DNA of 64,000 nt from an uncultured Myxococcales bacterium (GTDB taxonomy: Bacteria; Myxococcota_A; Polyangia; Polyangiales; Polyangiaceae). A model generated the notes under the pieces. That model saw only the letters and a program-made list of their open reading frames with translations, was not told the origin of the DNA and did not search any database. The number at the start of each line of letters is the position of its first letter. Position 1 is the stretch's first letter. Made by a program: the position numbers and the translations under genes. Of the stretch, positions 36,987 through 52,502 are shown piece after piece. Location of the stretch: positions 1 to 64,000 of the forward strand of contig CALFNG010000255.1 in assembly GCA_937902985.1 (NCBI GenBank), written 5' to 3'.

Positions 36987-37048
36987 ACTCTCGCGGAACC
37001 GCGGGCAGTTTCCGGGGCGCCGGCGGTACCGTCTGCTACTTGGAGTTC

Positions 37049-38008
37049 GTGAAGACGCGCGTCGCCCGGCTCGCAGGTTCGGTTGCGTTCGCCTTTCTCG
37101 CGTGTGCCCGGAGCGAGGCCGCTCCGTCGACGAGCGCGCCGGTGGTCGCGACCGCGTCTGCGACCGCGTCCGAGCCGGCGTCCACGTCCGCGTCCACGAC
37201 CACGCCGTCCGCGTCCACGTCCACGTCCGTGCCTGCCCCCCTGCCCCCGCACATGCTGCTCGTCCCGGCCGGGTCCTTCACCATGGGGACGGATACCGGC
37301 GGCGAAGGCGACGAGCACCCGGCGCACACGGTCACGCTCGCCGCGTTCTGGCTCGACAAGACCGAGGTCACGAATGGCGCGTGGGACGAGTGCGTCGCGG
37401 CGGGCGCGTGCCGGCCCAAGTCAGCGAGCGTGCGCGCCGAACACCCCGACTTCAACGGCCCGAACCAGCCGGTGAGCGGAGTCTCCTGGGACGACGCGCG
37501 CGGATACTGCGCCTGGCGCGGCAGGCGCTTGCCGCGTGAGGCCGAATTCGAGAAGGCCGCGCGCGGAACCGACGACCGCCGCTACGCCTGGGGCAACGAC
37601 CCGCCGACGCGCGACCGCGCGGTGTTCTCGGCCGGACGCACCGAAGACGTCGGCACTCATCCCTCCGGTCGCGGCCCCTACGGGCACGACGACCTCGCGG
37701 GCAACGTGTGGGAATGGATGGAGGACGAGTACGACCCGTACGCTTACCGCCGGTCAGGCGCGCCCGAAGGTGTCCCCGGCGCGTGCGCCGAGATCATGGC
37801 CGCGCAGGACGAGCTCCGGCGTGACTACGAGCAAGGCTTCACCGGCACCAACCCCATTCCCACCGAGTGCGAGCACGCGATTCGCGGCGGCGCGTACAAC
37901 TACGATCCTCACGGCCTGCGCGTGACGAACCGCGTGCACCATCCCGGCAAGTACCGGATCCCGATGCTAGGGGTGCGCTGCGCGAAGGATGCACCTCGCA
38001 GTCCTTGA
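37049..38008 (+). CDS. SUMF1/FGE-like lipoprotein
   Basis: About 319 residues. Signal peptide with lipobox FAFLAC (about residue 20), a Ser/Thr/Ala repeat tether (STSASTTTPSASTSTSV), then a compact SUMF1 domain: MLLVPAGSFTMGTDTGGEGD, FWLDKTEVTNGAWDECV, PVSGVSWDDARGYCAWRGRR, GHDDLAGNVWEWMEDEYDPY and AIRGGAYNY. It matches the standard sulfatase-modifying-factor pattern better than the longer SUMF1 protein at 13462. The second active-site Cys arrangement of true FGEs is not evident, so a non-catalytic surface role is likely. GTG at 37049 with GGAG five bases upstream; TTG at 37040 is the track start. Confidence 0.9.
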   Translation: MKTRVARLAGSVAFAFLACARSEAAPSTSAPVVATASATASEPASTSASTTTPSASTSTSVPAPLPPHMLLVPAGSFTMGTDTGGEGDEHPAHTVTLAAFWLDKTEVTNGAWDECVAAGACRPKSASVRAEHPDFNGPNQPVSGVSWDDARGYCAWRGRRLPREAEFEKAARGTDDRRYAWGNDPPTRDRAVFSAGRTEDVGTHPSGRGPYGHDDLAGNVWEWMEDEYDPYAYRRSGAPEGVPGACAEIMAAQDELRRDYEQGFTGTNPIPTECEHAIRGGAYNYDPHGLRVTNRVHHPGKYRIPMLGVRCAKDAPRSP

Positions 38009-38106
38009 TTGGCCGCCCCGATGCCGCGCGGAGGGACGCAGCTGTAACCAATACGTCGCACGGCTGCACCGCAGGCTCATGGTAGAGCCCCTCCCGCGGC
38101 TGGGGC

Positions 38107-39246
38107 ATGCGAGCGATCTCACTTCTTCGCGGGTTTCTAGGAATGGGCCTTGGCCTCGGGCTCATGGCATGCACAGGGAGCGGCGACGATTACGCGTCGG
38201 TAGCCGCCGCCCCTCTCTCCGCCGACGCAAGCGTTCAAGATGGGGGGATCGGCGACGCGACGCTGACCGAGGGCGCTGCACCCGATGGCGGAGCCGGCAT
38301 CGACGCCGCGTCAGACGCGCCAGGTACCCTGGCCGCTCTGCGCGTGGCCAACTGGTCGGCGAGCGCTCCGATGGTCGATTTTTGTATCGCCCCGCACGGT
38401 ACGAACGCGTTTCGGCGGCCTGTGCTTGCGGACCTCGCGGTCGCCATCAGCGAGGCGGGCCTCGTCGACGCGGGGTCGTCGGCCGTGGCATTCCCCCAGG
38501 CCAGTGCCTATTTTCTCGTCGCCCCGGGTCAGTACGACGCCCGGCTCGTGCCCGGTGGGGCCCCCGATTGCTCTGCGAAGATCGTCCCGGACGCAACCGC
38601 ATTGCCCGTGTTCGACGCCGGTCAACAAGCGACGATTGCGCTCATCGGTGCACTGGACTCGGACGGTGGGAAAAGGCCTCTCTCGATCGCGGCCTACTTT
38701 GACGACATCCGCGACGTCTACGCTCCGCCCCCCAGCGGAGGCGCGGCCGACAGCGGCGCGCCAGGCGACGGAGGCGCGGCGACCGACGGCAACATCAACG
38801 CCGTCGCACCGCTCGACTCCAGTGTGCCGCAGGGCCGCCTGGCCGTTCGAGCGATCAACGCCAAACCCGGCGGCCTTCAGAACATCGATATCGGAATCGT
38901 TTCGAGTGTGACCGACGGCGCCCAGCTGGTGCCTTTCTTTCTCGGGATCCCTTACGGCGCATCGAGCCGTTCAGCATCCAACTTCAGCGTCGTGGCCGAC
39001 CCGAACGGCTACGCGCCGGCCGCCCCGCTCGTCGCCACGGACCTCATCGCGGTGCGCGCCATGGGTGCCCCGAACAACCTGGCCCTCGGGTCCGGCGTAT
39101 CCGCGGCGGCTGGCGCCGTATTGACCTTCGTTGTGGTCGATACGCTTTCACCATCGAAATCCAGCCCGACCGCACAGCTCGTCGAGTGCCTCGACAACGT
39201 CGGGACGCTCGGCCTCACGGGCAGTTGCGCCGTCGTCTCGCAGTGA
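38107..39246 (+). CDS. DUF4397-like lipoprotein
   Basis: 379 residues. Signal peptide ends with lipobox GLMAC, followed by a long Asp/Gly/Ala tether (DASVQDGGIGDATL). Two beta-rich segments follow: LAALRVANWSASAPMVDFCI and RLAVRAINAKPGGLQNIDIG; each starts with the 'LRV.N....P.VD..' pattern of DUF4397 domains. A second Gly/Asp-rich spacer (GGAADSGAPGDGG) separates them. Surface-exposed lipoprotein of unknown role. It sits 98 bases after the SUMF1 lipoprotein on the same strand. Confidence 0.8.
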   Translation: MRAISLLRGFLGMGLGLGLMACTGSGDDYASVAAAPLSADASVQDGGIGDATLTEGAAPDGGAGIDAASDAPGTLAALRVANWSASAPMVDFCIAPHGTNAFRRPVLADLAVAISEAGLVDAGSSAVAFPQASAYFLVAPGQYDARLVPGGAPDCSAKIVPDATALPVFDAGQQATIALIGALDSDGGKRPLSIAAYFDDIRDVYAPPPSGGAADSGAPGDGGAATDGNINAVAPLDSSVPQGRLAVRAINAKPGGLQNIDIGIVSSVTDGAQLVPFFLGIPYGASSRSASNFSVVADPNGYAPAAPLVATDLIAVRAMGAPNNLALGSGVSAAAGAVLTFVVVDTLSPSKSSPTAQLVECLDNVGTLGLTGSCAVVSQ

Positions 39247-39451: not shown

Positions 39452-42400
39452 ATGATAGCCGCAGCGCGGAAAGCGACCGGACTGCTCGTATCCGCGGTCC
39501 TTGCGACGGCCGCCGCCGGATGCGGCTCCGGGGACGACACGACGTCGACGTTCGTGACCAACGTCGTCGGCCCGGATAGCGGGTCGGACGCTACCACCGC
39601 ACCGCCGCGAAACGCAGACGCGGGGGGCCCCGACGTCGACCGCCCAGAGGTCGGCGTCAGCGACAGCACGACGGGCGCCCCGGTCGCGATGTTCTCGTCG
39701 GCATCGGTCGACGTTGGACTTGTCCCCTGCAGTGGAAAAGGAACCGCCGCGCTCCACGTCCAGAACACGGGCACGAGCGTTCTGGCCCTGAGCGTGGTGA
39801 CCACCGGAAGCGTCTTCTCGGCGGTGCCCACGAGCCTGACGATTCCGCCGGGGCTCGACGACGGGGGGTCCACCGGGACGCTCATCATCACGGCCGACGT
39901 TCCGGGCTCGTCTGCCGCAGCCATTCCGCTGACCGGCTCGCTCACTCTGTTCACGAACGACCCGGCTCGGTCGAACGTGACCTTGCCCCTGTCCGTGACG
40001 CCAAGCGGCGCGACCATCGTCTTCCAGGATGCAACGGCGGTCAGTTTTCCTACGACCGGCGTGAATCAAGCCGCCTCGGCGCTGGCGGTAACGCTCGCGA
40101 ATCGCGGGAACGCCCCGGCTACAGTCAACATTGGTGCTCCCCAGAATCCGTTTTACCTCACGGGGTCGGCTGACGGGGGCGGGGGCCCGATCGACGTCGG
40201 TCGCACCTACTCTGCGAGCTTTGGCTTCACCCCGACCGACGCAGCGCTGAAGTCTCAGATTGCAATCGTCACCATCACTAGCCCGACGTGCGGCGCGAAC
40301 GTGGCGTCGATCTCGCTGACCGGCCAGGGCGCGCTCGGCAACGTGACGGGGTACCCGACGGCCCCCCTTGATTTCGGGTTTGCCGATTGCGGAGGGAGCG
40401 CGCCCGCGCCAGCGCAGTTCCTTCTGACGAATACTGGACCCGCCGCGGCACACGTCACGAAGGCGTCGATCTCGGGACCGGGCTTCAGCACAAGCACGGC
40501 AGTCGGCCAGGTGATCCCCGGCGGCGGCGGCACGCTCCTCGTCAACGTCAACGCCCCCGCCGTTCCGAACGTCTCTTCGCTGACGCCGATTGCCGCGACC
40601 TTGACCCTGCAGACCGACGCGGACACATCGGCACAGACGATTGCCCTCACGGAAGAACCGCACGGCGCCGTTCTCGTTTTCGACACTTCAGCTAACCCAA
40701 ATTTCGGCAGCTTCGGGCAATCGGTCCTTCTTCAGGCCACATCCCAAAACTTCAGCGTCAAGAACACCGGCACGGGTGCGGCGGTCGTAACGCTCTCGGC
40801 TGGAACCACCGGCTCGGCGCCCGCGCCCTTCACGGTCTCGAATCCGAGCTTCTCGATCCCTGCGGCCGGCGCCCAGACCGACGCCGTCATCTTCGCGCCA
40901 ACTGCCGCGAACAACGCGGGCTCGCTCTCGATGAACGCCACGGGCACGCTTTGCGCGCCATTGCCGTCGTCACTGCCGCTCTCGGGCGCCGGCGTCGGCG
41001 CGGGCCCATCGATAAACCCCACGTCTCTGACGTTCCCGGCCTTCTGCGGCGGGCCCCCCCCTGCTCCCGCCACCTTCACGGTCCGAAACGACGGCCAGGC
41101 CAACCTGAACTGGTCGATGAGCCCCGTCACGGGCGCGGGCAGCGAGCGATACACGCTCTCGGCTTCACCCGCGCCGGGCCTGCTCATGCCGGGAAAGACT
41201 TCGACGGTGACGGTCACCGCGGCCGCCATACCGTCCCCGACGCCGAACCCTCGCCCGTCTTCATACGCCTCGCACGTCACGATCACGACCGACGTACCGT
41301 TCGACAATCCGCACACCGTCACTCTGGGCGAGACGCCCCTCGGTGATGTGCTCTCCGTGTCACGCTCCAACCTTTCGTTCGGGCAGTTTCCGATCGGTAC
41401 GTCCACGATCGCGCAAACGTTCATCGTAACGAACGACGCCAATCTGGGCTCGCCGGCGGCGACCCTCTCCGTCTCGCCGGACGGTTCCGGTGCGAGCGCC
41501 TATTCAATTGCGCCGGCAACGATCGGGAACCTCGCCCCGGGCGGTGGCGTTTCCGGCTTGGAGAGCGTGACGTTCCGTCCCGGGGACGCGATACCCTACC
41601 AAGCCAAGGTCGCGCTCGCGTCTACCGACAGGCTGTGTTCGCCGCTCCCTCCGGAGATCCAGCTCATGGGCACGGGAACGCAAGGCAAGGTCAGCGTCTC
41701 CGCGACCACCCTCGCCTTCGGCACCGATGCGAACGACCCCGGGGGCCTGGTGAACTGCGGGTCGACTGGACTCGCGCACACGTTCACCATCTCGAACATC
41801 GGAAATCAGCTCTTCAACGTCACGGGGCTGTCGCTCGGGCTGGGCGCCATGTCGCCTTACGTCGTCTCGGGCGACGCGGCGACACTTCCGGCGGCAGCTC
41901 CGATCGGCGCCAGCCTCACCGTCACGGTGACGCCCAAGGCGATTCCAGCGAATGTCACGAATCCGAACGATGCCACACCATTCACCGACACGTTGACGGT
42001 TTCGACGGACGCCGCGCTTGACGCGCCACACCGGATCGCGCTGGTCATGCAGGCTCGTGGCGCCGTGATCACCGACACGCCGCTCGCCACGACATGGGAC
42101 TTCGGGACGCTCGGCAACGGGCGGATCGGCACCTTTTCGAGCACGGTGACGAACACGGGCAACGCGGACGCCTCGATCGCGTTCTCGGGGCTCACCAACC
42201 CGACCATCTTCGGCTTGCAGGGGAGCCCCACGACGATCGCTGCCAACGCCGTCACCGACATTATGGGGCAGTTCTCGCCGCCTGCGACGAACCAGGTCTG
42301 GACCGACCACGGAACGCTGATCGTGACGCCGGCCCAGGTCTTCTGCGAACCGCTCCCGGCCGCCTGGAACCGTCCGGCGATCAGCTTGTCCGGATCCTCG

Positions 42401-43114
42401 ATCGGTGGAAGTCTACCGGTTACCGTCTCAGGGAATCTGGCGTTTCCGACGACGGATTGCGGAAGCGCGGGGCCGGCGGCCCAGTCGATCACGCTGACCA
42501 ACACGACGGCCGTGCCCTACGTCTACACGGCCGCGCTGAGCTACGGGGCGTTCTATACGCTGCAGAACCCGACCCAGGGCGACGCGGGGGCCGGGATCAT
42601 CGCGGGTCACGGGGTGGTCGTGCTCGGGGTGACTCCGGTCACGGTCGCGCCCGGGCCTGGAGTCGTCGCCGGCTCGGCACCCTATGCCGACAATCTCGTC
42701 ATTGCCATTCAGTCGCAAACGCCGAGCGGCGTCACGCTCCCCATCTCGTGGACGCTCAACGGCGCGATGCTGTCGCTGCCCGAGGGCATGGGCCCGAACA
42801 AGGACTCGACGGGCAACCAGTTCTACGTCGCCGACAGTCAAAGCGGGCTCACTCTCCCGATGGACAACTCGGGCACCGCAACGGCCTCGGTTCAGTTCGG
42901 AATTCAACCACTGGGCGCGTTCACCGTAACTCCGACGCCGCCCATCGCCATCGAGCCGAACATTCGCGCTCTGCCGCGCCTCAGCAGCGCTTCAGCAGAC
43001 ACCGCGTGCCCGGCCCTCACCGCCGGGTCGGCTACTTTTCTCTACTCCGGGCCGGTGTGCCGGCCGTTTCAGTTTCCGAAGATCACGATCCAATCCTGCG
43101 CCGGTGCGTTCTGA
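39452..43114 (+). CDS. Large choice-of-anchor/ASH-domain surface lipoprotein
   Basis: 1220 residues. Signal peptide with lipobox TAAAGC (about residue 24) and a Gly/Asp/Pro tether, then about nine immunoglobulin-like beta-sandwich repeats of roughly 120 residues. Each opens with a strand such as PLDFGFADCGG, SLTFPAFCGG, NLSFGQFPIG, TWDFGTLGNG or NLAFPTTDCG and contains an F/V.NTG segment (FLLTNTGPAAAHV, FTVRNDGQANLNW). This is the ASPM-SPD2-Hydin / choice-of-anchor-D pattern common in myxobacterial surface proteins. Probably an adhesive or structural outer-membrane lipoprotein. It ends 39 bases before the cNMP-fold gene and may head its operon. Confidence 0.85.
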   Translation: MIAAARKATGLLVSAVLATAAAGCGSGDDTTSTFVTNVVGPDSGSDATTAPPRNADAGGPDVDRPEVGVSDSTTGAPVAMFSSASVDVGLVPCSGKGTAALHVQNTGTSVLALSVVTTGSVFSAVPTSLTIPPGLDDGGSTGTLIITADVPGSSAAAIPLTGSLTLFTNDPARSNVTLPLSVTPSGATIVFQDATAVSFPTTGVNQAASALAVTLANRGNAPATVNIGAPQNPFYLTGSADGGGGPIDVGRTYSASFGFTPTDAALKSQIAIVTITSPTCGANVASISLTGQGALGNVTGYPTAPLDFGFADCGGSAPAPAQFLLTNTGPAAAHVTKASISGPGFSTSTAVGQVIPGGGGTLLVNVNAPAVPNVSSLTPIAATLTLQTDADTSAQTIALTEEPHGAVLVFDTSANPNFGSFGQSVLLQATSQNFSVKNTGTGAAVVTLSAGTTGSAPAPFTVSNPSFSIPAAGAQTDAVIFAPTAANNAGSLSMNATGTLCAPLPSSLPLSGAGVGAGPSINPTSLTFPAFCGGPPPAPATFTVRNDGQANLNWSMSPVTGAGSERYTLSASPAPGLLMPGKTSTVTVTAAAIPSPTPNPRPSSYASHVTITTDVPFDNPHTVTLGETPLGDVLSVSRSNLSFGQFPIGTSTIAQTFIVTNDANLGSPAATLSVSPDGSGASAYSIAPATIGNLAPGGGVSGLESVTFRPGDAIPYQAKVALASTDRLCSPLPPEIQLMGTGTQGKVSVSATTLAFGTDANDPGGLVNCGSTGLAHTFTISNIGNQLFNVTGLSLGLGAMSPYVVSGDAATLPAAAPIGASLTVTVTPKAIPANVTNPNDATPFTDTLTVSTDAALDAPHRIALVMQARGAVITDTPLATTWDFGTLGNGRIGTFSSTVTNTGNADASIAFSGLTNPTIFGLQGSPTTIAANAVTDIMGQFSPPATNQVWTDHGTLIVTPAQVFCEPLPAAWNRPAISLSGSSIGGSLPVTVSGNLAFPTTDCGSAGPAAQSITLTNTTAVPYVYTAALSYGAFYTLQNPTQGDAGAGIIAGHGVVVLGVTPVTVAPGPGVVAGSAPYADNLVIAIQSQTPSGVTLPISWTLNGAMLSLPEGMGPNKDSTGNQFYVADSQSGLTLPMDNSGTATASVQFGIQPLGAFTVTPTPPIAIEPNIRALPRLSSASADTACPALTAGSATFLYSGPVCRPFQFPKITIQSCAGAF

Positions 43115-43153: not shown

Positions 43154-45328
43154 ATGGCCAGTAAACGCCCGACCCGCCCCGTTGCCGCGGAGCGCCAGGA
43201 GGCCGGGTCCGCCGATTTGCCGCTCGATCACGCCCTGTCGCTTCTCCTGGCCGACGAGACGGAGAACGCGCTCCGGTGGGGCGCCGCCGTGCTCGAGGGC
43301 GGCCCCTGGACGCCCGGTGCACTGGTCATCACCGCGCGCCTTCTCGACCAGATGGGCCGACGGCGCGCGGCCGTCGAGGGCCTGAATCTGGCGATCAATC
43401 AGGCGATCATCGAGGGCAATCTGCCGCTCGCGATGGCTGCCCTCGGCGACCTGCGGTCGTGCGGTGCCGACGTCGAGGTCCCGCTCGACCAGATCGCCTC
43501 CGCGTTCTGCGTGGGTTCCGATCGGCTCCATCAAGACGAGGCCGAGTCCTTGTCTCCGCAGCTCGCAGAGTTCCGCCCGCTGAGCCCCTTTCTCACGGGC
43601 CCCGCGCTGGCATCCAAGGCGGCGCAGATCGTCGAGACCGTGCGACGCACGGAGCACGACGACAAGGACGAGGGTCCAGCGAGAATCGCGCCGCTGCCCC
43701 TCTTCAGCGCCCTCGGCAAAGAGGCACTCCACGATCTGCTGGCGGCCTTCGAGACCCTGACCGTCCCCACGGGCCACGCCGTGATCCGCGAGGGTGAGGA
43801 GGAGGCGGCCGCGTACATCGTCGCTCGCGGTGAGCTCGAAGTCTCGCGGCGCGCCACCGATGCCAACGGAAAGCCCATCGTCGTCGCGCGCCTCGGAAGC
43901 GGCGCATTCTTCGGTGAAATGGCGCTCCTCTCCCAGCTTCCCGGGGCCGCCAGTGTGATCGCGACGCGCCCCTCGATTCTGCTCGTCGCCAAGCGCGAGG
44001 ATCTCGAGGCCGTCGTCGAGAAACACCCGGAAGTCGCCGCCGAGCTCGCGGCGCATTGCCGACGGCAGTCCGTGGCGAACCTCGGCTGGGCGTCGCCCGT
44101 CGTGCTGGCGATCCCACCCCGCGAGCGCGCCGCCCTGGTCGAGCACTTCGAAACGCGCGTCTTCGAGGCGGGCGACAAGCTCGTCGAGGCGGGCGAAGAG
44201 GCGCGCGGCCTGCATCTCATCGTTTCGGGAGAGATCGGGATCGTCGCCCATGAGGGCGGCGAACGAATCTCCCTCGCGACGCTTACGGCGGGAGAGACGG
44301 TTGGCGAAGTCGAGCTCGTTCTCTGCCGGAATTCAGTGGCAGACGCGATCGCAGTCCGGCCTACGGCGACTCTCTTCTTGCCGCGCGAAGAGTTCTTCGC
44401 CCTCGTTCAAGACCACCCCCCCATCTTGCACGGTCTGTACGGGATCGCCGTCCGACGGCACGCTGAGACGAATCTCGCGCTCGGCGCCGGTTCGTCCGCG
44501 GCGCTCGACGAGGCCTGGCACGCAGACATCTCGGAGGACGCGGCCGCCCTCGTCGAGCCGGCGCCGCGTGCGACCCCAACTGCGGGGCAACGGATCTCTC
44601 CGCTGGCCCGCGGGACCTTGGGGATCTCCAGGGCGAGCTCGGCGCCGCCAGCGCGCTCCCCAACGCTTCCGCCACCTTTGCCGCCGCCGCCACCGCCGGT
44701 GACCATGGCCAGCACGCCGCTGCCCCCCGTCACTTCCACGATCCCCGGGCTGCCGGTGCCTCGACGCACCACGAATCCGCCGGCAGTCCCGGCCTCCGTT
44801 CGGCCCAACGAGTTCGCGCGTGCGTCGAGCAAGGTCTCGAGCTTTGCGCCGCTGACCGCTTCCACATCGTCGGGCGGAGAGGCGTCTTCTCCCTTCGCCG
44901 CGCGAACGCTGGGGGTCGTCGCGCTCGTGGCGGCCGCGGCCGGGGTCATCGCGGTCCTGGCGACGCGTGGCTCGCAGGGGAACGCCCTCCCCACGCCGCC
45001 CCCCGCCGCCGCTCATGCGCCCGTCGCCGCACCGCTGCCGTCTCCCAGTCCGGCCGCGGACTGGACCGCTGCTCCCGTCGAGACAGCCCGACCGACCGTG
45101 GCGCCCCGGCCCGTCGCCCCGCATGTCGTCACGAAACCGAAGGTCGTCGTGGAGCCGAACCCGGTGTTCCGCGCCGGCGACGGCCCGACGCATGGCGCCG
45201 CACCGGTGGCGAGCCAGCTCTCCCCCTCCTCGGCGACCGCCGCGCCGCCTGCGCACTCGGCGACCTCGCCCGCAGGTTCAACAGACGTGCGCGCGATCGG
45301 CGCGGGCGAGTTCGGAGGACGCGAGTGA
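43154..45328 (+). CDS. Double cyclic-nucleotide-binding-fold membrane protein
   Basis: 724 residues. N-terminal helical region (about 20-130) with a TPR-like segment, then two CRP-type beta-rolls: residues about 180-300 (GEEEAAAYIVARGELEV; GAFFGEMALLSQLPGAASVI) and 320-435 (HLIVSGEIGIVAHEG; GETVGEVELVLCRNSVADAI). The phosphate-binding Arg expected after FGE.AL is replaced (QLPGAAS), so ligand binding is doubtful. A Pro/Ser/Thr-rich stretch follows, then one membrane helix near 582-605 (TLGVVALVAAAAGVIAVLAT) and a Pro/Ala-rich tail outside. Start at ATG after GAGGAGG. Coupled by GTGA to the next TPR protein; part of a kinase operon. Confidence 0.88.
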   Translation: MASKRPTRPVAAERQEAGSADLPLDHALSLLLADETENALRWGAAVLEGGPWTPGALVITARLLDQMGRRRAAVEGLNLAINQAIIEGNLPLAMAALGDLRSCGADVEVPLDQIASAFCVGSDRLHQDEAESLSPQLAEFRPLSPFLTGPALASKAAQIVETVRRTEHDDKDEGPARIAPLPLFSALGKEALHDLLAAFETLTVPTGHAVIREGEEEAAAYIVARGELEVSRRATDANGKPIVVARLGSGAFFGEMALLSQLPGAASVIATRPSILLVAKREDLEAVVEKHPEVAAELAAHCRRQSVANLGWASPVVLAIPPRERAALVEHFETRVFEAGDKLVEAGEEARGLHLIVSGEIGIVAHEGGERISLATLTAGETVGEVELVLCRNSVADAIAVRPTATLFLPREEFFALVQDHPPILHGLYGIAVRRHAETNLALGAGSSAALDEAWHADISEDAAALVEPAPRATPTAGQRISPLARGTLGISRASSAPPARSPTLPPPLPPPPPPVTMASTPLPPVTSTIPGLPVPRRTTNPPAVPASVRPNEFARASSKVSSFAPLTASTSSGGEASSPFAARTLGVVALVAAAAGVIAVLATRGSQGNALPTPPPAAAHAPVAAPLPSPSPAADWTAAPVETARPTVAPRPVAPHVVTKPKVVVEPNPVFRAGDGPTHGAAPVASQLSPSSATAAPPAHSATSPAGSTDVRAIGAGEFGGRE

Positions 45329-46272
45329 ACCGCAGGATCTGGTTTGGAATGGGCGTCGCCTCGCTCGCTCTCTCGCAGGCGTCCAGCGCAAGAGGCGAGC
45401 CCCCGGTCAGCGGACAAGCCGACGCCCTCTTCGAGCAGGCCATGGACCTGCGGAGCGCGGGGAACGACGCCGCAGCGTGCCCAAAATTCGCTGCAAGCAA
45501 GCAGCTGGCCCCCGCCATCGGAGTGACGCTCTATCTCGCAGAGTGCTACGAGCGCACCGGGCGAAGCGCGAGCGCGTGGCGCGAGTTTCGCGAAGCCGAA
45601 AAGATGGCCGGCGAACGCAATGACAAGCGCGCCGAGGTCGCCGGAAAACGCGCGGCCGCGCTCGAACCGAGCCTCGACCGGCTCACCGTCGGGACGCCTG
45701 GCCGGAGCATCGACGCGGGAACGGTCGTGACGGTCGATGGCGCAGCTCTGGCGCCTGAATTCTTGGGCCATGCGCTCGCCGTTGACCCCGGTGACCATAC
45801 CGTGACGATCACGTCTCCAGGTCAGGCGGCGAGGACCCTCACTGCGCACGTCGACGCGGCCACACCCACAGCGATCGTACGCATCGACGCAGCGCAGCCG
45901 TCCGAGGTCACGTTGCCTCCAGCGGCCACGGCCGACACGACACCCGCGGCGACCGCGGAGACCGGCGACCGCGGCGTCACGGGACGATTCGTCGGGATGG
46001 GGCTGGTCGTCGCGGGCGCGGCCGGGATTGGAATCGGCACGTGGCTTCTGACCGACAAGGTCCGAGACCTGATGCCCAACGGTCAGCTCTGCGATCCCCG
46101 TCTTCGAGCTCACGCTATTCCCGAGGGAATCGTCGCGCTCTCCGTCGGCGGCGTGGCCGTCATTTCCGGAGTCTCTCTTTATTACGTAAGTCGGCCGCAT
46201 CACGCTGGAATCGCTCTCTCGCCCGCGATCGTCCCGAGTGGCGCTGGAGCCCTCTTGAGCGGAAGCTTCTGA
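45325..46272 (+). CDS. Exported TPR protein of the kinase operon
   Basis: 315 residues. N-terminal signal (WFGMGVASLALSQASSARGE), then TPR-like helices (about 30-105: ADALFEQAMDLRSAGNDAAA; LYLAECYERTGRSASAWREF), a beta segment similar to PEGA domains (VVTVDGAALAPEFLG...DPGDHTVTIT) and a C-terminal pair of hydrophobic segments (VGMGLVVAGAAGIGIGTWLL; EGIVALSVGGVAVISGVSLY). This architecture is common next to myxobacterial Ser/Thr kinases. Envelope-located scaffold or sensor is likely. GTG start overlaps the upstream stop. Confidence 0.85.
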   Translation: MNRRIWFGMGVASLALSQASSARGEPPVSGQADALFEQAMDLRSAGNDAAACPKFAASKQLAPAIGVTLYLAECYERTGRSASAWREFREAEKMAGERNDKRAEVAGKRAAALEPSLDRLTVGTPGRSIDAGTVVTVDGAALAPEFLGHALAVDPGDHTVTITSPGQAARTLTAHVDAATPTAIVRIDAAQPSEVTLPPAATADTTPAATAETGDRGVTGRFVGMGLVVAGAAGIGIGTWLLTDKVRDLMPNGQLCDPRLRAHAIPEGIVALSVGGVAVISGVSLYYVSRPHHAGIALSPAIVPSGAGALLSGSF

Positions 46273-46283
46273 GCTCGACGGTC

Positions 46284-48107
46284 ATGGAGGTCGAGGCGCA
46301 CAAGACTGCCAGCGGCAAACCTCTCGCCGCCGGCGAGAGCTCGGCGCCGCGAACCATCGGACGCTTTCGGGTGATCGCGGAGCTTGGGCGGGGATCGACC
46401 AGCATCGTCCATCTCGGAGCGGTCAACGGCCCCGCCGGATTCAACAAGCTCTTCGCGATCAAGCAGTTGCGGCGCGCGCTCGCCGCCGATCCCGCGCTGA
46501 TCAATCTGTTCCTCGCCGAGGCGCGGGTCGGGGCGCAGCTGAACCACCCGAACATCGTCACGACGCTGGAAATCGACGAAAAGGAGGCGCTCCCGTACAT
46601 CGTGATGGAGTACCTCGACGGGCAGACGCTCCAGAATCTCGTGGCAACCGCCCGCATGGCGTTCATGCCGTTGCCCCTGCACATGCACCTCGCGGCTTTG
46701 AGCGGCGCGCTCGAGGGCCTCGGGCACGCGCATGCCGCACTCGGACCCGACGGGCTTCCCATGCACGTCGTCCACCGCGACGTGAGCCCGCACAACGTGT
46801 TCGTGACGAGCAGCGGAGTGCCCAAGCTCCTCGACTTCGGAGGCGCCCAGACGGGCGCGCCGGCGGACGAATCGCCGAGCGTCATGCCGAACAGCGCCGC
46901 CCGGGTGGCGTACTTGTCTCCCGAGCAGGCCCTGGGTAACCCGGTCGATGCTCGCTCCGATCTGTTCTCCATGGGAGTGATGTTCTGGGAAGCGGTCACG
47001 CGGAAGCGCTTCTGGTCAGAGGAGGCGACCAAGGCGGAGATCCTTCGCGCGCTCGCGGCGCGCGAGCTCCCTTCGACGCGGGTGTCCATGCTCGCGAAGG
47101 TCGACGAGCCGCTCCGAGCCATCGCGTTGAAGGCCACATGCCCGCGGCCCGAAGACCGCTACGAGAGCGCGACGGCCTTTCAGAGGGAGCTGCAGACCGC
47201 CCTTCGCGCAATGACGCCGCCAGCCTTTGATCTCCGCGACCTCGGAAAGCGCCTCGCCACGATCTTTGCCACCGACCGCGCTCGGCTTCAGGCGGCCATC
47301 GAGGCTCAGATCGGCCAGCGGCCGCCGGACGTCATCTCGCGCGATCCACGGGGGGGGGCGGCGGCGTCACGAGAAGACGAGCCGGAAGCGGCCCAGGTCC
47401 TGCCCGAGGCGCCATTCGCAACGTTCGAGGCCGAGGCAGCGAATGCATCGGAGCCGGTGAGTTCGAGCCGCCCAACGCCCTCGAGCCGGCCAACGCCCTC
47501 GAGCCGTCCCATGCCTGCGAGCTTGCCTCCGCCCGCGAGCTTCGTCTGGGCGGAGAGTCGTTTCCCGTCGGAGGGACCCTTACCGTCGTTTCCCCTTCCC
47601 GACGCAGACCATTCGGACCGCGCTCATCGTCGGAGGGTGGCCATCGCAGGGCTGGCGCTCGCCGCGATCTTCGGCATCGTCGTCGCCGCGATTCGCAGCT
47701 CGGGCCAGGACGCGCAACCATCCGCAAACACGTCGGCGACTCCCGAAGCGTCGCAAAGCGCCGCGACCTCGCCTCGCGAGACGCCTCGCAGCGCACCACC
47801 GGCTATCGCGCCGTCAGAGTCGTCCCCGGCTGCAGTCTCGCCCGGGGCGACAGCCAACGTGCCTAACGCAAAGGCGGTTACGCCAGAGGCTTCTGCGCAT
47901 GGCCACGAGGTGGGCGTCGCCAGCGGACGCGCCCTGGCGTCGCCGATGCGTGCCCGTAGTCCCGGCGTCGCGCCCGCGGAAGCGAAGCCGACTCCTGTGG
48001 CCTCCACGAGCCAAGACCTCCCCGTCCGTGTCTCGGGCAGCGCGGCCCCCACCCCCGCAGGGCGTCCGGTGCACCCCATCGACTCGATGAACCCCTACGG
48101 CCCATGA
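46284..48107 (+). CDS. Eukaryotic-like Ser/Thr protein kinase, membrane-anchored
   Basis: 607 residues. Kinase domain at about 25-310: Gly loop ELGRGSTSIVHLG, Lys in FAIKQLRRAL, catalytic HRDVSPHNVFV, DFGGAQTG, and YLSPEQALGNPVDARSDLFS. Catalytic residues are all present, so it should be active. The HRDVSPHN form is usual in myxobacterial kinases. A linker with three copies of SSRPTP, one membrane helix (about 452-472, VAIAGLALAAIFGIVVAAI) and an extracytoplasmic Ser/Ala/Pro-rich tail follow. No PASTA or other sensor domain. ATG chosen 81 codons inside the track ORF. It overlaps the next gene by ATGA. Confidence 0.93.
   Translation: MEVEAHKTASGKPLAAGESSAPRTIGRFRVIAELGRGSTSIVHLGAVNGPAGFNKLFAIKQLRRALAADPALINLFLAEARVGAQLNHPNIVTTLEIDEKEALPYIVMEYLDGQTLQNLVATARMAFMPLPLHMHLAALSGALEGLGHAHAALGPDGLPMHVVHRDVSPHNVFVTSSGVPKLLDFGGAQTGAPADESPSVMPNSAARVAYLSPEQALGNPVDARSDLFSMGVMFWEAVTRKRFWSEEATKAEILRALAARELPSTRVSMLAKVDEPLRAIALKATCPRPEDRYESATAFQRELQTALRAMTPPAFDLRDLGKRLATIFATDRARLQAAIEAQIGQRPPDVISRDPRGGAAASREDEPEAAQVLPEAPFATFEAEAANASEPVSSSRPTPSSRPTPSSRPMPASLPPPASFVWAESRFPSEGPLPSFPLPDADHSDRAHRRRVAIAGLALAAIFGIVVAAIRSSGQDAQPSANTSATPEASQSAATSPRETPRSAPPAIAPSESSPAAVSPGATANVPNAKAVTPEASAHGHEVGVASGRALASPMRARSPGVAPAEAKPTPVASTSQDLPVRVSGSAAPTPAGRPVHPIDSMNPYGP
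47463..47516 (+). repeat. 18-bp tandem repeat in the kinase linker
   Basis: Three copies of TCGAGCCGNCCNACGCCC encode SSRPTP-SSRPTP-SSRPMP between the kinase domain and the membrane helix. Copy-number change would alter linker length without breaking frame. Confidence 0.75.
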
Positions 48108-49132
48108 GAACGATCTTCGGACATGGTTGCCTCTGTCGCCCTGGTGCGATCGCCCTGGTCCTCACGTTGACCACGGCCCAGGCGTACGCGCAGGAGCCCC
48201 AAGCCTCCGCTGCGCCGACCAGCGAAGCGAGGGCTCACTTCGATCGGGGCGTGACCTTCTACGAAGAGACCGATTACTCGGCCGCTCTCGTCGAGTTCAA
48301 ACGAGCCTATACGCTCGCTCCGACGTGGCAGGTTCTCTTCAACATCGGCCAGTCGTACTTTCAGCTGAGAAACTATGCTCTTGCCCTGGTGACGCTCCGG
48401 CAGTTCATCGAACAGGGAGGGAATCGGATCCCGCCGGAGCGGCGAGCGCTCGTCGATACCGAGAGCATGGATCTCGCCAATCGGGTCGGGCACACACGCA
48501 TCCTGTCGAATCGAACGGGTGCCACCATCTCGGTCGATGAGGAAGTGGTGGGGGTGACCCCGGTGAAGGACCCTGTGCTCGTGAGCGTCGGGATACGCAA
48601 ATTGAAGGCTGTCTACCCCGGCACCCCGGCTGTCGAGGGGCCCGTCGAGGTCGAAGTGTCGGTGCCGGCCGGCGAGACGGTCGATGTTCGCCTCGACTTT
48701 CCGGATTCGCCCCCGCCCATGGCGGCCGAGCCTTCCGCGCGTCCCCGCGAGGTGCCCACGGCGGCCGCTTCCGAACAAGCCACGGTTGCGACACATAGCC
48801 GCGCTCCGGCCCTCGTATCGTTCGGGGTCGCAGTCGCTGCCACGGCGATAGGTGCCGTTTTCGGCGGCCTCACACTCCGCGACAAATCCCGCCTGGAAGG
48901 CGAGTGCGTCGGGAAAGCCTGCGTCGTCGGGTCTCGACCGGACATCGACGCGGTATCGCGAGACGGAGCCATCGCGACCGTCGGTTTCAGCGTCGCGGCG
49001 GTCGGCCTTGCCACGGGCGTCGTCTTCTGGCTCGCGGCGGGGGGTTCGGCCGCGCGCGACGGCGGCATCACGACCTCCCCCCCGGCCCCACGCACGAGCT
49101 TCGGTCCAGGGTTCGTCGCCGGCACGTTTTGA
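48104..49132 (+). CDS. Exported TPR/PEGA-like protein of the kinase operon
   Basis: 342 residues. Signal peptide ending AQAYAQE, TPR pair (RAHFDRGVTFYEETDYSAAL; QVLFNIGQSYFQLRNYALAL) at about 40-115, a PEGA-like beta segment (TRILSNRTGATISVDEEVVG; VSVGIRKLKAVYPG) at about 130-195, then two hydrophobic segments near 232-252 and 290-312. Same plan as the protein at 45325-46272, so the operon carries two such scaffolds flanking the kinase. ATG overlaps the kinase stop (ATGA). Confidence 0.87.
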   Translation: MRTIFGHGCLCRPGAIALVLTLTTAQAYAQEPQASAAPTSEARAHFDRGVTFYEETDYSAALVEFKRAYTLAPTWQVLFNIGQSYFQLRNYALALVTLRQFIEQGGNRIPPERRALVDTESMDLANRVGHTRILSNRTGATISVDEEVVGVTPVKDPVLVSVGIRKLKAVYPGTPAVEGPVEVEVSVPAGETVDVRLDFPDSPPPMAAEPSARPREVPTAAASEQATVATHSRAPALVSFGVAVAATAIGAVFGGLTLRDKSRLEGECVGKACVVGSRPDIDAVSRDGAIATVGFSVAAVGLATGVVFWLAAGGSAARDGGITTSPPAPRTSFGPGFVAGTF

Positions 49133-49142
49133 GAGACCCCGG

Positions 49143-50726
49143 ATGCTTCAACAGCGAGTGAGAGACGCATTGTGGGCGATCGGCGCGGGGACCGTGGTCA
49201 CGGCGTGGGGCTGCAACGCACTCACCGACTCGACGGGCTACTACGAAGTGAAACCCGCCGTCTTCGACTCTGGAACGGCCCTTTCAGACTCTGGAACGGC
49301 CCTTTCAGACTCTGGAACGGCCCTTCCCGACGCGACGTGCGTCGCGGGTACGGATCGCCGCACGCTCGAAGCTGCATGCACCGGCAGCTCTTGCGTGCCG
49401 TATGATGCCGTCCTCGCCGTTTGCGACGGCGGCTTTTGCCCGCTACCCACGCCGAGCCCGCAGCCCGTTGCGGACGCGAGCGCCGAATCCGGAGCCGCTC
49501 CCGACGGGGGAAGCGACGCCGCTCCAAATGATGGCGGCGTCGAGGGAGGTACCGGCTCCTGCAGTCAACTCCCCGGTGAGCCGAGCTCGGTCGTGTATGT
49601 GACGGGATCGACCGCGCTCGCATCATTCATCGGAGAAGTTTCCAGTGCCCTCGCTTCCAAGGTCACCATCGTCTATCAGCAGAGCGGCTCGTGCGTCGGG
49701 GTCCACTCGGCGCTCGATCCCGCAAACTACGCGCTCTCCTCCGCGAACGGGGTCGCGACGTATTACACCCCGAGCGGGGTCCAGAAGACCTGCGTTCTCG
49801 ACCCGAGCGAGAGGCTCGTCGCCGACGTCGGCGCCTCGGACGTCTTTTACTCCACATGTTACCAGGGCCAGGCGGTGACGCCGACTCTCCCGGCGTCGGT
49901 GGGAGAGAACTTCGGGCCCGTGCAGATCATGAATTTCGCCGTACCCCAGTCATCCACGCAGCAGAGCATCAGCCTCGCCGCGGCGTATTACGTCTTCGGC
50001 TTCGGCGGCAGCCCCTACCGGGTGCCGCCGTGGACGGACCCGATGCAGCTTCAGATTCGCAGTGCGAACTCGGGAACCCAGTCGCTCATCGCGGCCGCCA
50101 TCGGCGTGCCACCGAGCGCGTGGTTCGGAGTGAGTCATGGAACGAGCGCCCAGGTCGGCGCGGCGCTCGGCGCGGCGGGCCAGAGCGGCAGCCAGACGGT
50201 CGTCGATTCGGCGCTCGGTATCCTGGCATCGGACTATCTCCTCCAGAACGCGCAGGTGCTTCGCGGGCTCGCGGTCCGAGACGAAGGCGCGAGCTGCGCC
50301 TTCTACCCGAACACGACCGCGTTCGCCCGGGACAACGCCAACGCTCGGGACGGCCACTACCCCCTCTGGGGCCCGTCTCACTTCTACGCGCGCACCGACC
50401 CGGCCACGGGGCTCCCGCTCAAACCGGGGGTCTCCCAGTTCATCGATAGCCTCAACGGACTGACTCCCCTGCCCGGCCTCGACCTCGTGGCCGAATACGC
50501 CGCGAAAGGTCTCGTTCCACAGTGCGCCATGCACGTGACCCGCTCCAACGACGGCGGCGACTACACGCCCTTCAAGGCGGCGGCTGCGTGCAACTGCTAT
50601 TTCGACCTGCACGCCACGGGCTCGACCTCGTGCAAACCGTGCCAGGCGAACTCCGATTGCCCGAGCCGTGCTCCCAACTGCAACAAGTTCGGCCCGCAGC
50701 CGCAGCAGGGCTACTGCGACCTTTGA
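49143..50726 (+). CDS. PBP-like (PstS-type fold) cysteine-containing lipoprotein
   Basis: 527 residues. Signal with a lipobox-like TAWGC (about residue 24), then a repeat tether and an acidic/Gly spacer, and from about residue 150 a type II periplasmic-binding-protein-like domain: VVYVTGSTALASFIGEVSSA, TIVYQQSGSCVGVHSAL, VGASDVFYSTCYQGQAV, IMNFAVPQSSTQQSISLAAA. That is the order seen in PstS-like and related substrate-binding folds. No transporter subunits are nearby, so it may be a surface binding or sensor protein serving the kinase operon. The end is Cys-rich (CKPCQANSDCPSRAPNCNKF). ATG at 49143, 10 bases after the previous gene. Confidence 0.8.
   Translation: MLQQRVRDALWAIGAGTVVTAWGCNALTDSTGYYEVKPAVFDSGTALSDSGTALSDSGTALPDATCVAGTDRRTLEAACTGSSCVPYDAVLAVCDGGFCPLPTPSPQPVADASAESGAAPDGGSDAAPNDGGVEGGTGSCSQLPGEPSSVVYVTGSTALASFIGEVSSALASKVTIVYQQSGSCVGVHSALDPANYALSSANGVATYYTPSGVQKTCVLDPSERLVADVGASDVFYSTCYQGQAVTPTLPASVGENFGPVQIMNFAVPQSSTQQSISLAAAYYVFGFGGSPYRVPPWTDPMQLQIRSANSGTQSLIAAAIGVPPSAWFGVSHGTSAQVGAALGAAGQSGSQTVVDSALGILASDYLLQNAQVLRGLAVRDEGASCAFYPNTTAFARDNANARDGHYPLWGPSHFYARTDPATGLPLKPGVSQFIDSLNGLTPLPGLDLVAEYAAKGLVPQCAMHVTRSNDGGDYTPFKAAAACNCYFDLHATGSTSCKPCQANSDCPSRAPNCNKFGPQPQQGYCDL
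49266..49328 (+). repeat. 21-bp tandem repeat (SGTALSD x3) in the PBP-like lipoprotein
   Basis: Three copies of GACTCTGGAACGGCCCTTTCA, essentially identical at DNA level, encode D-SGTALS repeats just after the lipobox. Identity at silent positions points to recent expansion. Confidence 0.85.
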
Positions 50727-50736
50727 CGCGACCTGA

Positions 50737-51285
50737 TCAGCATGAGCCCGAGGGCGGCTTGCTGCCCGCCGCGCCGCGGGCCGGGCGGCGCGCGCCGCGG
50801 AGCCATAGCAAGGCGACGGAACCAAGGATCCCGAGCCACCCGAGCCCGCCTCGCCTCTCCCCGCCCCGGTCCGCGGAGAGGGAGCACCCGAAGCTCGGTT
50901 GAGGGAGGGCAGTGGTTGGATTCGAATGGTCGTCGTTTGGATTGATGCCCATCCGGATGTCGTCGATCGCGTGCGGATCGATCATTTCCACGGCATCCAG
51001 CGCCGGCCCCACCGTCGAGGGTCGGGTGCCGATCGCGCCCTGTTGACGGAGCTCCGCGCCGAATGCGTTGTTCGTCATGAAGCCGCCCTGCTCGGTCGTG
51101 TGGCACAGGAGACAGCCGTGAGGCGGCGCGACGGCGTTTTCGATCGTCGCCGAGCCACTCAGCTTCAAATGCTGGTCGACCTCTGCCGGGAACGTGGAAC
51201 TTCCAGCTGCGCCAAGGCTCCACCCGGTCAACGCGGTCAGACAGAGAAGCGCGAGGGATCGCCTGAGGCGGGCCTGGGTACTCAT
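50737..51285 (-). CDS. CxxCH protein with MYXO-CTERM-like tail
   Basis: 182 residues. N-terminal signal (RRSLALLCLTALTGWSLGAA), a single haem c-type motif PPHGCLLCHTTEQGG near residue 60, and a C-terminal sorting tail with SFGCSLSADRGGERRGGLGW, a hydrophobic helix (LGILGSVALLWL) and RGARRPARG. The Gly-Cys followed by helix and Arg cluster matches the MYXO-CTERM domain (TIGR03901-type), which directs surface anchoring in myxobacteria. GAGAGG is upstream of the ATG. Last gene of the yceI operon, 8 bases after the barrel gene. Probably a cell-surface monohaem cytochrome-like protein. Confidence 0.85.
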   Translation of the reverse strand: MSTQARLRRSLALLCLTALTGWSLGAAGSSTFPAEVDQHLKLSGSATIENAVAPPHGCLLCHTTEQGGFMTNNAFGAELRQQGAIGTRPSTVGPALDAVEMIDPHAIDDIRMGINPNDDHSNPTTALPQPSFGCSLSADRGGERRGGLGWLGILGSVALLWLRGARRPARGAAGSKPPSGSC

Positions 51286-51293
51286 GACACCTC

Positions 51294-52502
51294 TCAAAGA
51301 AAAACGTGGAACTGGGCCAACCACGTCGTGACGCCCGTGTTGGCCGGCGCTCCGGCGGCCCCGATGCTGCTGTAGATGCCGTCGAACCGCAGGTCCATGT
51401 GCGGCAAGAAGAACCACACCGCCGAGAGCCAACCGTCGAACGACGCTGGCTCTTGCGCCGCGCCGCCGTTCAACACCTCGCCCGTCAGCATGACGTGAAA
51501 ACCCTGGGCCGGCTCGTAGTCGGCCTGGGCGAACGCGGCGTACCCGCCGCGGTGGCCGTTCCACGTCAGCGATTGGTAGACGCTATCGGCCTCCGCCAGG
51601 AGAACGAGGGGTTGGACCGGCGCATAGCGAACGAACACCCCGTTCGCGTACCGATAGTCGGTCACGCCATATTGAATGTCGCGCGTCGCCCTGGTGAACG
51701 AGCTGCTGGCTCCGACCGCCAGCGTCGTCGCCGGCGCGTACTCGACATAAGCGCTGTAGCCACGCTCGCGAAAGTCGTCGGGGCGCATCTGAAAATTTCC
51801 GGCGATGCCCATCGCCTCGGCCCGGACCTTGTCTTGACTGAACGCGAGCGCCACCCCGTACTGCTGCGTTGCGTCGAAATCCGTTCGCGTGAGCGTTCGC
51901 GCCCAGAGCGTGTGCTCGATCATCCGGATGCCGAAAGGCAACGCGAGCTTGCCAGCGCGGAGGAGCCATGCGCCGTCTTCGTCGAGCTCCGCGCCCAGCC
52001 AGTGCTCCCTCGAGATCAAGTTCTTGGTGCTGGCGCGCGTCAGCGACACGGGAAGATCCCCCTCGGGGGCGTAGCCGATGTTCCCCGCGGCGCGAAACCT
52101 GCCGAGCTTGATGTCCGCCGTCAGGTCCGCGCGCATCGTGATGAATTGCTGCTGAACCGGGCTGCTTTCGACCTGGTTGCTGAGAAAGGCCTCTCGAAAG
52201 TCGCCACCCAGCCGGACCTGTTCGGGAAGCGGCACGAGACCCGCCAGGAAGCCAGACGTCTTGTCGGCCTCGCCCGACTCCGACGTTTGCCCGTAGCGCA
52301 TGCGCAGGAGAAGGTCGCTCTGAGCCCGCCCGTATTCGGTGAGGACGCCCGCACCCCCCGAGGGATCCGTGTGGCATGGCGTACACCCCGTGTACCCGTG
52401 ACGGATCATCCAGGGATAGGCGCGCGCGCTGGACGACGCCGTGACGAGCGCCGCCCAGAGCGCGACGCCCACGACCCAGCAGAATAGACGGCGCGCCGCC
52501 AT
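51294..52502 (-). CDS. CxxCH-bearing outer-membrane beta-barrel protein
   Basis: 402 residues. Signal peptide ending ARAYPW, then HGYTGCTPCHTDPSGGAGVL with one CxxCH haem motif near residue 40, followed by about 330 residues of alternating amphipathic strands (LRLGGD..., ADLTADIKLGRFRAAGNIGY, YSAYVEYAPATTLAVGAS) ending in the C-terminal Leu/Phe (FHVFL) usual for barrels. So a haem-motif plug fused to a porin-like barrel is likely. Second gene of an operon with yceI 38 bases upstream. An electron-conduit role is inference. Confidence 0.82.
   Translation of the reverse strand: MAARRLFCWVVGVALWAALVTASSSARAYPWMIRHGYTGCTPCHTDPSGGAGVLTEYGRAQSDLLLRMRYGQTSESGEADKTSGFLAGLVPLPEQVRLGGDFREAFLSNQVESSPVQQQFITMRADLTADIKLGRFRAAGNIGYAPEGDLPVSLTRASTKNLISREHWLGAELDEDGAWLLRAGKLALPFGIRMIEHTLWARTLTRTDFDATQQYGVALAFSQDKVRAEAMGIAGNFQMRPDDFRERGYSAYVEYAPATTLAVGASSSFTRATRDIQYGVTDYRYANGVFVRYAPVQPLVLLAEADSVYQSLTWNGHRGGYAAFAQADYEPAQGFHVMLTGEVLNGGAAQEPASFDGWLSAVWFFLPHMDLRFDGIYSSIGAAGAPANTGVTTWLAQFHVFL

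Follow-up and report, generated by a model that had tools for sequence, protein, structure and literature searches.

Sorangium-type genomes encode hundreds of Ser/Thr kinases, many of them without a recognisable sensor. A cluster of five genes on the 64,000-nt stretch of DNA that we analysed (the window, contig C255 of the 8.3-Mb, 563-contig assembly of an uncultured Myxococcales bacterium) contains one Hanks-type kinase, which is encoded together with a membrane protein containing two cyclic nucleotide monophosphate (cNMP) folds, two exported TPR proteins, and a lipoprotein resembling a periplasmic binding protein (PBP). We find that the kinase ends in a short C-terminal tag, that the class of this tag matches the family of the TPR protein encoded immediately downstream, and that the same is true of the cNMP protein and of many related kinases, the named ones from Myxococcota such as Minicystis and Sorangium. 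The genes, junctions and domains listed in a preliminary description of the locus are borne out by open reading frame coordinates and by Pfam; gene calls were made with a simple GC-frame method, and start codons are predicted. The features are as follows.

39452..43114, + strand: giant ASH/HYDIN-type (choice-of-anchor D) repeat lipoprotein, ending 39 nt upstream of the cNMP gene
43154..45328, + strand: membrane double-cNMP-fold protein (Pfam cNMP_binding, twice)
44906..44962, + strand: single transmembrane (TM) helix of the cNMP protein, aa 585-603 (hydropathy)
45311..45325, + strand: TPR1-class C-terminal tag FGGRE of the cNMP protein, of the class common to 23 TPR1-linked kinases
45325..46272, + strand: TPR1, exported TPR protein with PEGA-like beta-domain (alignment A2, AlphaFold)
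46284..48107, + strand: Hanks-type Ser/Thr kinase with one TM helix, aa 452-470 (Pfam Pkinase, 2.5e-29)
48078..48104, + strand: TPR2-class C-terminal tag IDSMNPYGP of the kinase (tag A, carried by 32/33 TPR2-linked kinases)
48104..49132, + strand: TPR2, exported TPR/PEGA protein (Pfam TPR_2 and PEGA, alignment A1, AlphaFold, Foldseek)
49143..50726, + strand: PBP-like (PstS-type) lipoprotein (PBP_like_2, lipobox TAWGC)

Three classes of tag can be told apart. Tag A follows the pattern [LIVFM][DE]x(1-3)[DN]P[WYF], summarised as [LI]-D-x-x-[DN]-P-[WYF], and lies no more than 8 residues from the stop codon, tag T1 reads [FLYWIVM]xx(x)R[KREDHNQ]-stop (e.g. FGGRK or LFEERK), and tag B reads CxPPY(x)GI+xxKPEC[LI]-stop with two conserved Cys; sampling favoured relatives of the window proteins, and the number of classes is a lower bound. 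When tags are set against the TPR family encoded directly downstream, tag A falls with TPR2 (32 kinases), T1 with TPR1 (23) and tag B with TPR3 (10), and no other combination occurs. TPR3 is a third TPR family, with members of ~280-310 aa (at L174, L179, L183, L195, L211, L316, L345, L350 and L352). Counted from the TPR side, tag B is present on 10 of the 11 TPR3-linked kinases, and the single TPR2-linked and TPR3-linked kinases left over fit their classes by eye (L069, ...YDEDPY; L302, ...GIKHVNPKCL); the strict T1 pattern is matched by 23 of 39 TPR1-linked kinases, and the kinase beside the closest TPR1 paralogue ends ...TAGFGGRE. Among the 1381 genes at the first 121 loci, only 32 show the strict form of tag A, and all 32 encode kinases. 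Within their tails the motif occupies 32 of 320 positions in the last 12 aa compared with 11 of 4352 positions earlier, an enrichment of ~40-fold.

The association between tag A and TPR2 is also evident when loci are picked by their kinases. At such loci TPR2 lies directly downstream of 23 of 37 tag-A kinases but of none of 98 untagged kinases (p=1.2e-16), the part drawn from relatives giving 16/27 against 0/35. An independent test was provided by named genomes, which were fetched after the tag classes had been set (the tag-A pattern being slightly widened to allow S/T before Pro and Y/M at the first position), and there TPR2 is directly downstream of 7 of 10 tag-A kinases compared with 0 of 64 others (p=6.7e-8). 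Even where a tag-A kinase has no adjacent TPR gene, a TPR2 gene is found elsewhere in the locus in 9 of 17 cases, against 2 of 102. In ten kinases a PEGA domain is itself fused to the C-terminus, and these show neither a tag nor an adjoining TPR gene. Tag and TPR family also change together: on a tree of 111 kinases we count seven changes of TPR family and six changes of tag, always in the same direction, the switched kinases being those of L268 and L079 in the B clade and of L183, L211 and L198 in the A clade; a further kinase with a TPR1 neighbour, that of L169, sits in the A clade and has no recognisable tag. We found no prior description of these tags in the open-licence literature on kinase-TPR pairing or on TPR/PEGA partners, and the matching of tag to TPR family appears to be new.

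A single TM helix follows the kinase domain in 31 of 32 TPR2-linked, 37 of 39 TPR1-linked and 10 of 11 TPR3-linked kinases, so that the tag should be extracytoplasmic if the kinase domain is cytoplasmic. The window kinase conforms to this architecture. As the preliminary description had proposed, it looks active: the VAIK Lys, Glu, HRD, Asn and DFG are all retained, as in a Hanks-type Ser/Thr kinase, and K60, E79, H164-R165-D166, N171 and D184-F185-G186 are invariant across 22 relatives, with a catalytic loop that reads HRDVSPHN and not HRDxK. The predicted extracytoplasmic tail, which had been described as short, is a disordered segment of ~137 aa beyond the TM helix. Pfam detects no PASTA repeats in the window kinase (an NCBIfam PASTA-kinase match of 184.5 bits, below the cut-off of 450, covers the kinase domain only) and no TPR within its polypeptide, the TPR being encoded by the next gene. 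In both cassettes, the protein encoded first has a single TM helix and a disordered Pro/Ala-rich tail of predicted periplasmic location, which finishes in a conserved peptide at the C-terminus.

The TPR1 and TPR2 families are built alike: besides the signal peptide and a TPR domain of 5 helices, they have a PEGA-like beta-domain, a pair of hydrophobic helices and, at the C-terminus, a beta hairpin. Pfam recognises TPR2 (TPR_2, 6e-8; PEGA, 0.001) and scores TPR1 poorly (0.62), the TPR1 family model being a clear TPR plus beta-domain with a predicted local distance difference test score of about 97 across the TPR domain in AlphaFold. Foldseek places the TPR2 domain near those of CTPR, Hop/STI1, CHIP and RPAP3 (E about 1e-3), with weaker matches for TPR1, and the matched domains of Hop, CHIP and RPAP3 bind C-terminal peptides. 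Cys52 and Cys74 of TPR1 are invariant, which fits an oxidising compartment, but a further pair of Cys is located in the loop that joins the two hydrophobic helices, which may face either side. Both families end in a beta-signal-like ...hxhxGxF-COOH (GSF in the window TPR1, GTF in the window TPR2), the Phe being invariant in 24/24 TPR2 proteins, an unusual ending for proteins with two hydrophobic helices.

Taken together, these observations lead us to regard it as reasonably probable, and as the simplest account, that the cluster combines two docked pairs into one composite unit for envelope signalling, with a tag docking each membrane protein to a TPR co-receptor. In each pair, a protein of the inner membrane, with its output domain (kinase or double cNMP fold) in the cytoplasm, would send one helix into a disordered periplasmic tail, the last ~5-10 residues of which would serve as the docking tag. 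The TPR/PEGA protein of the matching family, translated together with it, exported and anchored in the membrane, would bind the tag and act as co-receptor, so that the kinase would need no sensor domain of its own. The TPR/PEGA protein might sense a ligand or surface contact, perhaps via the PBP-like lipoprotein, and sensing would cluster or release kinases and thereby alter autophosphorylation. A co-receptor of the same kind may gate a cyclic-nucleotide-responsive protein. The preliminary description had suggested that the TPR proteins or the lipoprotein could supply the missing sensor; the co-variation of tag with TPR family supports the TPR half of this suggestion, and the lipoprotein is linked by gene neighbourhood only. 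The matching of tags to TPR families suggests that numerous kinases with no apparent sensor of their own connect, by way of a C-terminal peptide, to a sensor that is a separate protein. More tentatively, and with slightly more doubt than confidence, we propose that at least three, possibly more, mutually exclusive pairs of tag and periplasmic TPR protein form a modular wiring code in these myxobacteria, in which the last few tail residues would assign the numerous kinases without sensors in each genome, and occasionally another cytoplasmic output such as the cNMP protein, to separate co-receptors, with tags that can be swapped along with their partners in evolution.

Several observations weigh against docking. 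T1 is degenerate, in that the strict pattern fails for 16 of 39 TPR1-linked kinases and, in a fresh set of 13, holds for only 5, and roughly one tag-A kinase in three lacks an immediately downstream TPR2 gene. Only two of the switches are independent and on well-supported branches, too few for significance in a sign test. On average, positions on the presumed concave side of the TPR domain are no more conserved than other surface positions (2.63 vs 2.71 bits and 2.66 vs 2.64 bits in the two comparisons), and charge complementarity between tag and TPR is weak. Groove conservation was therefore set aside as proof of docking; because concave-face residues are not unusually conserved, docking in the TPR groove is something we infer, and the PEGA domain is a possible alternative site.

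The same data can be read in other ways. If both the tag and the TPR family were read by an unseen third partner, for instance a PDZ protease such as DegS or Prc or a sorting factor, the two would co-vary through the shared pathway, a reading that we consider unlikely, albeit the strongest of the rivals. The tags are short and C-terminal, like PDZ ligands, the outer-membrane-protein-like ...GxF-COOH of both TPR families could be read by a PDZ protein or by a factor of the beta-barrel assembly machinery (BAM), and some tagged kinases lack a directly downstream TPR gene; however, a shared protease would not require three tags to match three TPR families one to one, and it does not sit easily with fused-PEGA kinases that lack both tag and TPR neighbour. 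A still less probable account is co-inheritance, whereby kinase-TPR pairs were duplicated as units and their C-termini conserved for unrelated reasons. Tag classes do largely track kinase clades, and tree labels cluster far above shuffles, but the motif is kept, concentrated at the very end, in a tail that has otherwise diverged, the five switched kinases sit in the clade of another class yet carry the tag that goes with their TPR neighbour, and the cNMP protein bears a TPR1-class tag without being a kinase.

Myxobacterial genomes encode such kinases by the hundred, together with numerous TPR proteins (353 and 134, respectively, in Minicystis rosea; PMC8436480), so that chance neighbours are conceivable, and the five products might be functionally unlinked outcomes of ordinary lineage-specific expansion. 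The highly significant tag-matched adjacency, the 4-nt overlaps and the lack of any such neighbour among the 98 untagged kinases make this very improbable. We give almost no credence to the idea that the tag codons, lying before a 4-nt overlap, are a ribosome-binding or reinitiation signal for the TPR gene. Such overlaps are common, and in the window FGGRE is encoded by TTC GGA GGA CGC GAG, which puts GGAGG just before the TPR1 start; elsewhere, however, FGGR is also encoded with GGC GGC or GGT GGT and is kept with gaps of 41-183 nt, and this comparison of codons and gaps rules out a Shine-Dalgarno origin of FGGR. The tag-A codons (GAY-x-x-RAY-CCN-TGG/TAY) contain no Shine-Dalgarno sequence, and tag A is kept where a PBP gene intervenes or TPR2 lies on the other strand (L085, L091, L281, L282).

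We next place the docked-pair arrangement beside known systems. Bacterial Ser/Thr kinases that carry a TPR or WD40 domain fused to the C-terminus have been described in Sorangium and Uabimicrobium (PMC11032199), and share with the kinases considered here a cytoplasmic kinase domain, one TM helix, a TPR predicted to be periplasmic, and lineage-specific expansion, whereas in the present pairs the TPR is exported as a protein of its own and a short, class-specific tag terminates the kinase; by analogy, the published fusions would be the one-piece form of the tag-TPR arrangement. The Hsp70/Hsp90 EEVD-TPR clamp of Hop, CHIP and RPAP3 likewise pairs a disordered tail bearing a C-terminal peptide with a small, similarly folded TPR domain, but the tags here are putative docking peptides that end in [DN]P[WYF], [FL]xxR[KRE] or KPEC[LI], are predicted to be periplasmic, and have their partner encoded next door; judged by sequence, there is no EEVD in the tags and no clear carboxylate clamp in the TPR. 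In GlnH-GlnX-PknG of Actinobacteria, nutrients are sensed by an extracellular binding protein and the signal crosses the membrane to a kinase (PMC11032199). A putative binding protein and a kinase occur here too, the link to the PBP being by gene neighbourhood only; unlike the window kinase, PknG is soluble with its own TPR, and the window cluster has no GlnX-like relay. PASTA kinases (PknB/StkP) have the same Hanks kinase domain, single TM helix and extracytoplasmic C-terminus, but not the disordered tail ending in a tag. If the tag docks, a kinase's co-receptor could be read from its last ten residues, even for non-adjacent genes, the pairs would amount to C-terminal-peptide/TPR recognition in a bacterial periplasm, and the prediction could be checked with short synthetic peptides.

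All five genes of the cluster abut on the same strand, with a GTGA overlap between the cNMP and TPR1 genes, 11 nt between TPR1 and the kinase gene, an ATGA overlap between the kinase and TPR2 genes, and 10 nt between TPR2 and the lipoprotein gene; we found no terminator-like sites between them. The preliminary description had read this as one trans-envelope sensing module, to be doubted if the neighbours scattered in related genomes. Across 58 related genomes, many of them metagenome-assembled, and 40 PBP loci, the full set does scatter and does not recur as a unit, which leads us to reject a conserved five-gene operon, but its sub-modules stay together. A kinase gene followed by a P0004-like TPR/PEGA gene (TPR2) recurs in many genomes, often with a 4-nt overlap, P0002-like genes (TPR1) are placed likewise after other kinases, and cNMP-TPR1 and kinase-TPR2 are separate cassettes elsewhere. 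The cluster is thus a composite of two recurring cassettes of effector plus exported TPR protein (cNMP-TPR1 and kinase-TPR2) and a PBP-like lipoprotein, with a single-TM tagged protein directly upstream of the matching TPR gene twice in the window.

The cNMP protein extends the tag beyond kinases. It contains two cNMP_binding stretches (1.8e-35, Pfam) and, on the strength of these two folds, is a candidate cNMP-binding effector; it is not homologous to the kinases but bears a TPR1-class tag, and its gene overlaps the adjacent TPR1 gene by the usual 4 nt. Relatives carry a conserved ~455-aa double-cNMP protein (the copy G000:C552 ends at 453 aa), and the phylogenetic tree joins the window protein with that of L134 (100/100) within the genus clade, which identifies the window gene as a paralogue that arose within the genus and acquired a TM helix together with a Pro-rich tail that terminates in FGGRE. 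In several genomes (L132 and orthologous loci) the conserved 455-aa gene lies after an HrcA-like gene and before a ~370-aa gene, and this locus is apparently old and single-copy. The giant lipoprotein upstream matches HYDIN/ASH repeats (PF22544, 4e-25) and choice_anch_D (NCBIfam, 5e-38), and its orthologue in the congener G001 (47.6% over 1175 aa) lies directly upstream of a tailed cNMP gene (L134), the contig stopping within the tail. The earlier suggestion that this lipoprotein may belong to the module gains from the linkage in this one congener, and its gene is probably the first of the unit.

The lipoprotein at the downstream end is a plausible ligand-binding element on grounds of gene neighbourhood. 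It matches PBP_like_2 at 2.4e-4, under the curated cut-off (4 of 7 family members match), and PstS2, a phosphate-binding protein, weakly in the PDB (E 0.003). It shares with PstS/PBP_like_2 proteins this weak profile match and a PstS-like sequence pattern, but it is a lipoprotein with a long Cys-rich C-terminus, and no permease or ATPase gene adjoins it at the window locus; hydropathy reveals no TM helix after the lipobox. A tag-A kinase is present in 5 of 40 PBP loci compared with 0 of 80 cNMP and TPR1 loci, the homologues being mostly elsewhere (35/40 loci have no tag-A kinase). The PBP-like gene nevertheless recurs beside kinase/TPR2 pairs, in an order that varies: it is kinase-PBP-TPR2 at L085 and L091, whose kinases are the nearest to that of the window (support 99/88 and 99/90), PBP-kinase-TPR2 at L116, kinase-TPR2-x-PBP at L089, and TPR2-PBP with the kinase 2.4 kb upstream at L094.

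Other observations concern possible further tags and the neighbourhood of the cluster. Two kinases end in GR[KR][FI]RT[DS][LI]-stop (L161:6302-8056(+) and L200:2016-3698(-)), possibly a further tag class, and have no TPR neighbour that we could find. A TAtT (TRAP transporter T-component) protein (L254:2579-3490(-); PF16811, 7e-37) has a Pro-rich tail ending SSFGGRK and lies upstream of a TPR1 gene; we treat it as a weak candidate for a third kind of T1-tag carrier, since its gene is located at the edge of a contig and a homologue from G041 with 89% identity (another family, in a TRAP-type setting) is untagged. Upstream of the ASH gene, on the same strand (window 37040-39246, +), lie genes for an FGE-sulfatase-type lipoprotein and a DUF4397 lipoprotein. 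Downstream, 50737-51285 (-) encodes a small exported protein that has a CxxCH-like motif and, at its C-terminus, a segment rich in Cys/TM/Arg that is similar to a MYXO-CTERM sorting signal, and is adjoined by the gene for a 402-aa CxxCH protein (51294-52502).

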